Shown: positions 32,166 through 32,870 of the stretch, piece by piece
Numbering within the stretch: the first letter of the stretch is position 1
Layout of the letters: every line of letters begins with the position of its first letter
From: Chitinophagaceae bacterium
GTDB lineage: Bacteria > Bacteroidota > Bacteroidia > Chitinophagales > Chitinophagaceae
DNA length: 64,000 nucleotides
Direction: 5' to 3'
Assembly: GCA_014879565.1 (NCBI GenBank)
Contig: JACSRW010000036.1
Span: forward strand, 1-64,000
Position numbers and translations under genes: made by a program
The notes under the pieces: generated by a model
Seen by the model: the letters and a program-made list of their open reading frames with translations, nothing else
Database searches by the model: none
What the model was told of the DNA's origin: nothing

Positions 32166-32645
32166 AATTATATTTCTTAAATGAATGATGATTTCAGACT
32201 AAAATGGCAGGCAGTAAAACAAGGGGAGTCCCCTTTTCGGGAATAGATGTATGTATGCCTTACGGCATACAACAACGGCAACAAATACTCCGGATCGCGG
32301 AGCAGATGATAATTGAATATGTTGCCTTTTGGTTCATTTTACCCGATAAAATTAGTGGACCTTTTGTATTCCGGCCAAATTTTATTCGGCCGGCGGAACC
32401 AATAAAATGTTAAGGATCCCTGATCCGAATGAATGTTTGTTGAAGTCCCCCGCCGGGACATTCGCTGTTCTCTGGTCTGCCAGTACGTTTGCGCTTTCAT
32501 CTTTTTTTTGATTAAGACAGGATGAATACTTGTTACACATTGAAACACTTATCAGGAAAGCGGGGCGGGGCAGAAGGATAAGGCGGAACCTGTAATCAGT
32601 TCACGCCGGGTCGGAGGGTTTTTTTATCCCGCTGGGTTTACAGGA
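32166..32645 (-). promoter_or_regulatory. Distal metY leader with several hairpins
   Basis: 480 bases between the riboswitch terminator and metY. It holds the Cys-rich peptide ORF (32260-32337) and these hairpins: CCGGCC/GGCCGG at 32371-32393; a 7-bp pairing of 32277-32283 with 32320-32326 inside the peptide ORF; an 8-bp stem 32252-32259/32264-32271 overlapping its stop codon; and AAGGGG/CCCCTT at 32221-32235 followed on the minus strand by GTTTT, a weak terminator-like element. A 53-codon frame (32339-32500) ends one base before the peptide ATG; its coding status is doubtful. Confidence 0.5.
32260..32337 (-). CDS. Cys-rich leader peptide upstream of metY
   Basis: A 25-codon frame from ATG 32337 to TAA 32260. 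It begins MNQKATYSIII and ends ICCRCCMP, so 5 of 25 residues are Cys and the run Cys-Cys-Arg-Cys-Cys-Met falls just before the stop. The stop codon sits in the loop of an 8-bp hairpin, and the Cys codons overlap an arm of another, mutually exclusive one. Lying ahead of a sulfur-assimilation operon, this is what a peptide that senses charged tRNA-Cys (and Met) by ribosome stalling would look like. That is inference; translation is not demonstrated. No domain or export signal is visible. Confidence 0.55.
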   Translation of the reverse strand: MNQKATYSIIICSAIRSICCRCCMP

Positions 32646-32679
32646 AATAAAAAAGCCCACCCGATAAATCAGATGAGCT
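32646..32679 (-). terminator. Riboswitch terminator
   Basis: On the minus strand an 8-bp stem AGCTCATC/GGTGGGCT (with G-T pairs) and ~10-base loop are followed by TTTTTT. It lies about 37 bases after the SAM aptamer, so SAM binding probably causes premature termination. Confidence 0.85.
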
Positions 32680-32715
32680 TTCTATAATGAGTTGAATATA
32701 TACAGCTGAATCTGG

Positions 32716-32822
32716 CTTATCTGCCCCGGTATTACCGGGATGGAGTTGGCACCTTTTCCCGTTTGGCGGGAGAGGTTGTCAAGGCTTCACAGGGCCATTA
32801 CCCTCAGCCTTTCTTGATAAGT
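32716..32822 (-). promoter_or_regulatory. SAM-I (S-box) riboswitch aptamer
   Basis: Read on the minus strand: P1 CTTATC pairs with GATAAG, followed by AAGAAAGGCTGAGGG, the conserved TGGCCCTGTGAAGCC, the ACAACC junction, an apical CCCGCC..GGG hairpin, then AAGGTGCCAACTCC and the CCCGGTAATACCGGG P4 hairpin. These are the core elements of SAM-I. It controls metY-metX-hom: high SAM should favour the terminator at 32646-32679. Confidence 0.94.
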
Positions 32823-32838
32823 GAGTAAAGAACTGCTG

Positions 32839-32870
32839 CAAAGATACAAGTAAAACTGTTTGCTGCCAAA
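32839..32870 (-). promoter_or_regulatory. Promoter of the methionine operon
   Basis: On the minus strand TTTG (32867-32870), exactly 20 bases, then TATCTTTG (32839-32846): a perfect match to the Bacteroidota consensus. The predicted start near 32832 is about ten bases before the riboswitch. Confidence 0.85.

Follow-up and report, generated by a model that had tools for sequence, protein, structure and literature searches.

In this study, we examined the further long leader that separates metY from its SAM riboswitch in the genome of a Chitinophagaceae bacterium, and the short cysteine-rich open reading frame (ORF) in that leader. The relevant features of the window (the whole stretch of DNA analyzed here, 64,000 nt) are collected in Table 1. 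First, the SAM-I aptamer, with 75 bits, exceeded the gathering cut-off of RF00162 (44.4), and the terminator behind it could also be seen by eye in related leaders. With the box placed at -12 to -5 of the start site, as in the available part of PMC9723704, transcription from the putative promoter P1 would start at about position 32834. Second, 484 nt lie between the SAM terminator and metY, and the ORF occupies the last part of this distance, 94 nt upstream of metY. The enzyme encoded by metY makes a precursor of methionine and cysteine. The product of the gene directly upstream of the leader (33450-32911, minus strand) is a protein of 179 aa, of which a short stretch resembles SecA (NF009536, 42.8 bits, far under the cut-off), and a DUF805b RNA motif (RF02914, 39.2 bits) was observed elsewhere in the window at 37207-37175 (minus strand).

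Table 1. The metY leader and adjoining genes in the window, listed in the direction of transcription.
Feature	Position	Strand	Details
P1 -33 element (putative), TTTG	32867..32870	(-)	Consensus from the available part of PMC7366714
P1 -7 element (putative), TATCTTTG	32839..32846	(-)	Matches TAnnTTTG
SAM-I riboswitch aptamer (RF00162)	32714..32823	(-)	cmscan 75 bits, E 9.3e-16
Intrinsic terminator of the SAM riboswitch	32650..32683	(-)	15-pair stem-loop ending TTTTT, tail TATTTCCTGT
P2 -33 element (putative), TTTG	32376..32379	(-)	21 nt before the -7 box
P2 -7 element (putative), TAATTTTA	32347..32354	(-)	One base off TAnnTTTG (ends in A, consensus G)
Candidate polycysteine leader ORF, MNQKATYSIIICSAIRSICCRCCMP	32260..32337	(-)	25 codons
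Hairpin A, outer 5' arm, GGCAACA	32320..32326	(-)	Pairs with 32277-32283
Hairpin A, inner stem, TGCTCCG/CGGAGTA	32286..32304	(-)	Folds and alignment
Hairpin A, outer 3' arm, TGTTGCC	32277..32283	(-)	From the first Cys codons; folds and alignment
Cys codon cluster, TGT TGC CGT TGT TGT	32269..32283	(-)	
Hairpin B, TGTATGCC-GTAA-GGCATACA	32252..32271	(-)	8 bp; UAA stop inside the GUAA loop
Hairpin C, AAGGGG-act-CCCCTT then GTTTT	32221..32235	(-)	Weak, terminator-like
metY, O-acetylhomoserine/O-acetylserine sulfhydrylase	30840..32165	(-)	TIGR01326, 666 bits, cut-off 495
metX-like homoserine O-acyltransferase	29780..30838	(-)	Best TIGR01392, 329 bits, under the cut-off of 500
Homoserine dehydrogenase	28521..29777	(-)	NF004976, 306 bits, cut-off 205

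The peptide encoded by the ORF ends in ICCRCCMP, and its Cys cluster near the ORF end is in a position common to the window's family. The Cys codons, the 7-bp pairing in which they take part, the 8-bp hairpin around the stop and the AAGGGG/CCCCTT element had all been placed correctly on the minus strand in the preliminary description of this locus. Such a run appeared to be unusual in its surroundings: TGYTGYATGCCNNAAGGCAT, allowing at most two mismatches, had a single occurrence in the window, where 0.01 would be expected, and among the 29 CC-x-CC strings (TGYTGYNNNTGYTGY) of the bacterium's own genome, 28 were covered by stop-to-stop frames of at least 100 codons, that of the leader being the only one outside any such frame. 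The 25-aa peptide matched 0 families in either NCBIfam or Pfam at E values up to 1, and outside the Cys run it was highly variable among relatives.

The explanation that we favor, with a probability of roughly 80%, is that the small ORF is a cysteine-responsive leader peptide of metY, which perhaps also senses methionine. The sequences themselves show the ORF and its conservation specifically in the Cys frame, its association with metY, the hairpins, the terminator/antiterminator pairs in three sister genera and the promoter motif; that the peptide is translated, that ribosomes stall on it, which way metY responds and how the decision is read out in the window are inferred. A ribosome short of charged tRNA-Cys would slow down on the Cys codons; hairpin A would then be open and hairpin B would remain closed, and metY would be expressed. 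With cysteine in good supply, the ribosome would reach the UAA and open hairpin B, which would lead to the metY-off state. In sister clades, this off state would be an intrinsic terminator, formed when the antiterminator segment is covered by the ribosome that has finished the peptide; the output in the window's family might run via a weaker terminator, Rho or translation. By analogy, a shortage of cysteine should turn metY on. The name of the metY subfamily, O-acetylhomoserine aminocarboxypropyltransferase/cysteine synthase, includes cysteine synthase, which makes cysteine a sensible signal.

We analyzed the occurrence of the ORF within the window's genus, where metY was matched with an E value of 1e-60 or lower in 19 of the 42 genomes searched. 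Under our strict Cys rule, an ORF had to start with ATG, be no longer than 50 codons, lie within 400 nt and contain at least four Cys in six codons; such an ORF was found in 15 of these 19 metY leaders. Two more leaders had the ORF below the strict rule, one with a sequence that ends early (L039) and the other with three Cys (L049), and the remaining two (L041 and L046) had no Cys ORF, metY standing straight behind the SAM leader. In these last two genomes, the start region of metY is similar to a mid-leader stretch of the window (32498-32572, minus strand, ending ATCAAAAAAAAGATG), and metY begins at an ATG matching that of this stretch. Judged from this resemblance, the stretch appears to be the remnant of a 5' leader, downstream of which the polycysteine stage is now located.

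Scanning 257 Gb of prokaryote contigs with the exact 3' end of the ORF plus its hairpin (TGYTGYATGCCNTAAGGCAT, a pattern that fixes ATGCC/GGCAT by construction) yielded 49 loci. Four of them (L066, L074, L091 and L097) came from other, unrelated bacteria without metY behind the match, and the other 45 comprised 44 in named Bacteroidota groups and one 'uncultured bacterium' (L077); two of the 45 (L055 and L084) derive from a single isolate. In all 42 testable loci of the 45, a metY relative with 68-90% identity to the window's metY lay 83-113 nt past the stop; in the other three (L055, L064 and L079), the 3' sequence was too short for this check. Carriers included Terrimonas ferruginea DSM 30193, Lacibacter cauensis CGMCC 1.7271 and Foetidibacter luteolus YG09, as well as Lacibacter luteus and Terrimonas ginsenosidimutans. 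Thus, the element is present in named strains, and direct testing is possible. A SAM-I aptamer was detected by cmscan in 32 of 44 scan loci (L064 left out), at more than 1 kb in three of the 32 (L086, L088 and L092); of the 12 loci without an aptamer, at least five (L058, L067, L084, L089 and L099) are represented by a sequence with less than 400 nt in front of the ORF. A separate search with TGYTGYTGYTGYTGY gave matches in 184 of 198 class genomes, probably mostly CAG-type repeats, and was uninformative on other target genes.

The RNA structures around the ORF were examined in an alignment of 17 rows (15 from the genus metY search and two pattern matches, L065 and L075), on which our statements about hairpin B rest. 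Hairpin B was the best conserved, with 98.3% of cells paired, followed by hairpin C (73.7%), the inner stem of hairpin A (63.0%, five of seven pairs being changed on both sides) and its outer stem (only 54.7%). Hairpin B was retained even where the end of the peptide or the stop is altered (CCMPQAY in L032, CCMR in L037 and CCMPSGIQ in L048), and two leaders from other genera of the window's family (L103 and L105) have different sequences around the stop that appeared by eye to be able to pair. For a tested structure taken from the window's own sequence, the four helices of A, B and C jointly had 72.3% of cells paired, compared with 33-52% for slid versions; the covariation score was 0.174 against 0.118 and was reached by 0 of 500 shuffles, and 28 cells against 15.4 showed two-sided change (1 of 500 shuffles). 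Two of the five covariation measures were not above shuffles (two-sided pairs, 174/500; further pair types, 125/500), and RNAalifold predicted hairpin B alone, without two-sided change. Hairpin A, which joins the Cys run to the 5' half of the ORF, had a z value of -2.31 in the window and a mean of -0.96 over 46 sequences, 26 of which were below -1.

Terminators and antiterminators were most evident in the sister clades. Among leaders having an ORF with at least three Cys in six codons, a terminator-like hairpin between ORF and metY was found in 5/16 genus, 6/17 order and 10/22 class leaders; the corresponding rates in shuffles were 0.022, 0.015 and 0.095. We also analyzed 14 sister-clade leaders, chosen by eye for a clear terminator; four of these (L116, L118, L123 and L124) had been missed by the terminator scan because of its loop limit. 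In six of the 14 (L109, L117, L121, L125, L171 and L180), a segment located in the interval from the Cys run to just beyond the stop could form an antiterminator pairing of 7-10 bp with the 5' arm of the terminator (p ≤0.04, mononucleotide shuffles, uncorrected), whereas the other eight had no significant pairing of this kind; for L184, a wrong Cys pair was probably used to define the tail. These counts are not independent, since L109, L117, L121 and L125 belong to one genus and L116, L118, L123 and L124 to another; with four of the six antiterminator leaders sharing a genus, the arrangement is represented in three genera only. In L117, for example, GAAAGG stands right behind the stop and the 5' arm of the terminator contains GCCTTTC. 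A ribosome at the stop would cover the antiterminator segment, and thus the terminator could form, whereas a ribosome stalled on the Cys codons would leave the segment free. The anatomy of an attenuator, i.e., an intrinsic terminator plus a competing pairing near the stop, is therefore clear from the sequences of these six sister-clade leaders, and together with the conserved Cys ORF it supports the leader-peptide attenuator that the preliminary description had proposed.

The situation in the window's family appeared to be different. The region from the stop to metY was no more structured than shuffles there (mean z -0.24, 46 sequences), and the U tail behind hairpin C was, by eye, absent in many members. 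A terminator is thus doubtful in this family. The terminator-like hairpin of the preliminary description is present where it had been placed, but would be a weak terminator at best; a transcription terminator is plausible within the window's genus alone, and weak there. In line with these observations, the leader peptide of the window's family might act on Rho-dependent termination or on metY translation rather than on intrinsic termination, to which we give about an even chance. This alternative concerns the output step only and is otherwise compatible with the leader-peptide explanation, and the polycysteine ORFs of mycobacteria are a precedent, being described as cases of translational attenuation in the available parts of PMC13236596 and PMC9031893. 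However, the excess of terminator-like hairpins over shuffles among the genus leaders (5/16 against 0.022) and the use of intrinsic terminators by some sister clades argue against it, and in the nine constrained folds that included the metY start, no pairing between leader and metY start was common to all (the fold of the window itself ended at the metY ATG). Constrained folds in which the ribosome was set on the first or the last Cys or on the stop (10 of the 46 sequences) also had no alternative structure common to all, and we therefore claim no defined switch for the window's family. Two candidate pairings were rejected. In single folds (L096), the Cys run paired over a long distance with the metY start (AUGAGCAACAA); this pairing was dropped because the window's metY start, AUGUCUACUACU, is by eye not complementary; a CCC/GGG pairing as the alternative to hairpin C, seen by eye and then computed, was too weak.

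A survey that started from metY alone, without the scan pattern, extended the analysis to the order and the class. Here the best 29 other loci of 47 and 56 matching genomes, respectively, were used (the window's own genome being included in both numbers), and the Cys rule was satisfied by 16/29 order leaders and 18/29 class leaders, 13 and 11 failing it. Together with the genus, 49 of 77 metY leaders in class Bacteroidia were preceded by an ORF with at least four Cys in six codons; the denominator retains two incomplete leaders (L039 and L130) and two that have three Cys and fail the rule (L049 and L105). The preliminary description had staked its proposal on the small Cys ORF being kept in relatives that keep metY, and the ORF was indeed found in this position at all three levels (15/19, 16/29 and 18/29). 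It lay more than 200 nt from metY in five of the 49 (L110, L162, L168, L170 and L187), and thus not all of these ORFs need be metY leaders. The same rule was satisfied 0/77 times on the reverse strand and in 1/1520 dinucleotide shuffles; a chance frame within the SAM riboswitch leader, for which the shortness of the ORF speaks and nothing more, is thus refuted by conservation and keeps a negligible probability.

If the RNA alone mattered, the UGUUGU run would be a hairpin arm and its reading as Cys incidental. What favors this possibility, which we nevertheless consider very unlikely, is that the Cys run pairs with stretches of the AACAACA type in the 5' half of the ORF (the mean z of -0.96 given above). 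Applied to other residues in the same 77 leaders, the rule was satisfied by Met in six, Leu in five, Ser in three, Phe, Lys and Gln in one each and the rest, Val among them, in none, compared with 49 for Cys. Thus, it appears that a Cys reading frame is kept and not just a UGUUGU-rich RNA. Moreover, Met codons interrupt many of the sister-clade runs. The same codon positions used both TGT (167) and TGC (59) in 46 ORFs.

Still less probable is a working Cys-rich micropeptide that binds a metal or a thiol and is no sensor. Short Cys-rich peptides of about 25 aa, the length of this one, can bind metals. On the other hand, the peptide varies widely outside its Cys run, its spacing to metY is tight, the Cys run stands at the ORF end in the window's family, and metY follows in all 42 testable ones of the 45 pattern loci, all of which argue against such a micropeptide.

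With respect to the signal, 28 of 34 leaders from the order and class had a non-start Met codon next to the Cys run, and 57 of the 360 residues counted were Met, some of them possibly alternative starts. Since these Met codons adjoin the Cys run, the sensor may read Met-tRNA also, and the metY leaders of the order and class may carry a joint Met/Cys sensor. Two Cys/Met-rich short ORFs in tandem were observed upstream of metY in L180 and L184, and also in L168, approximately 260-280 and 90-110 nt before metY, the second ORF of L168 having just two adjacent Cys. As far as the sequences indicate, these tandem ORFs are possibly two successive attenuators.

The small ORF of the window probably has a promoter of its own as well. 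The predicted start site of the promoter-like site P2 is at about 32342, which, with the box spacing from the available part of PMC9723704, would give the ORF a leader of about 5 nt, and a transcript with almost no 5' leader is therefore predicted. A TAnnTTTR box was present at the place of P2 in 13/15 genus members (shuffle rate of the box alone, 0.039), and all 13 box-bearing members had TTTG or TTG 20-21 nt upstream of it. The box was also present there in 34/38 other family loci (shuffle rate 0.045), the predicted leader being longer in some. The Bacteroidota promoter consensus is TTTG / TAnnTTTG in the accessible text of PMC7366714; in two studied members of this phylum, leaderless or very short leaders are rare, leaderless transcripts accounting for 5.5% in F. 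psychrophilum (PMC9723704, in part) and 5' leaders below 10 nt for about 3.7% in B. thetaiotaomicron (PMC7366714, in part). As P2 lies between the SAM terminator and the ORF, the SAM and Cys stages would not be simply serial. The reading in series suggested in the preliminary description would hold for P1 transcripts, which would meet the SAM switch first and then the Cys stage, but P2 transcripts would bypass the SAM switch and pass through the Cys stage alone.

In other orders, the SAM aptamer often adjoins the leader ORF much more closely. We surveyed 520 nt upstream of metY in 58 order and class loci for ORFs of at most 60 codons with at least three Cys in six. A SAM-I aptamer was present in 28/58 loci, 20 with and eight without a Cys-run ORF, and 21/58 loci had the Cys-run ORF without an aptamer. 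The ORF lay downstream of the aptamer in 19 loci (L120, with the ORF upstream, was excluded), and in 16 of the 19 (L160, L163-L165, L169, L172-L174, L178, L179, L181, L185, L187, L188, L114 and L115) the aptamer ended 2-15 nt before the first in-frame ATG, which was used for spacing; L163 and L187 have later alternatives, so that their start is uncertain. An example of the junction is GGAGATATAAATT-ATAAAG-ATG. In the other three, the first ATG was inside the aptamer (L175) or 82 nt (L177) and 146 nt (L107) away. The closing helix of the aptamer would sit where translation of the leader peptide begins, so that control of this translation by SAM becomes a testable idea. Tentatively, and at somewhat less than an even chance, these junctions suggest that in class Bacteroidia a SAM-I aptamer gates the start of a Cys/Met leader at metY, and that this gate has been rewired in the window's family. 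Such a gate would turn metY on only when both SAM and Cys-tRNA are low; in the window's family, the promoter between the stages would produce a nearly leaderless peptide and allow Cys control without the SAM switch.

If correct, our results would provide a class-wide cysteine sensor for Bacteroidota that is predictable from sequence, and polycysteine leader peptides would exist outside mycobacteria. An aptamer beside a leader peptide, if it works as proposed, would be a natural two-input RNA circuit in which SAM reports the product and charged tRNA-Cys/Met the supply.

Titles and abstract starts in the open PMC literature yielded no polycysteine leader described for Bacteroidota or for metY. 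The preliminary description, which knew of no example in this phylum, is thus consistent with the open literature as far as cysteine and metY are concerned, but is too broad for attenuation as such: in F. psychrophilum, leader-peptide attenuation has already been suggested upstream of amino-acid operons, with no cysteine or metY case in section 19 of PMC9723704, the part of that paper considered here. The nearest relatives in kind are the polycysteine leaderless short ORFs of mycobacteria (Canestrari et al. 2020, Mol Microbiol, as presented in the available parts of PMC9031893, PMC13236596 and PMC9094748). Like the ORF described here, these are short ORFs that contain a run of Cys codons and lie upstream of sulfur amino-acid genes, at the 5' end of the mRNA or, as is predicted in our case, near it, and they are reported in those parts to read the cysteine supply through the speed of the ribosome. 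They are leaderless; for the ORF of the window, a 5-nt leader is predicted from the promoter motif, with longer ones in some family members. Our case differs in the phylum, in the target (metY) and in the adjoining SAM-I riboswitch, as well as in the stop within a conserved hairpin, the Met codons mixed with the Cys codons and the intrinsic terminators of some sister clades. We therefore treat the likeness as an analogy and do not file the Bacteroidota leaders as members of that set. Sinorhizobium meliloti metA offers a second parallel, in that its SAM-II riboswitch is closely followed by an upstream AUG, with a terminator before the start that is used (PMC9373788, in part). A SAM aptamer and an AUG at short distance are shared with our junctions; there, however, AUG1 is in frame with metA and the aptamer is of another class, and the word cysteine is absent from the main text of that paper.

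Compared with ordinary SAM-I (S-box) riboswitches, the aptamer and terminator of the window (32823-32650) look ordinary themselves, but a second stage, putatively read by the ribosome, follows them with its own promoter-like site. Classical trp/his/leu attenuators consist of regulatory codons in a short ORF, an antiterminator near the stop and a U-tailed terminator. The same three elements are found in L109, L117, L121, L125, L171 and L180, with Cys (plus Met) as the amino acid, whereas the window's family has no strong terminator and carries a self-complementary hairpin at the stop. On this sequence evidence, the leader appears to be a variant of the leader-peptide attenuators that is widespread in the class and often joined to a SAM aptamer.
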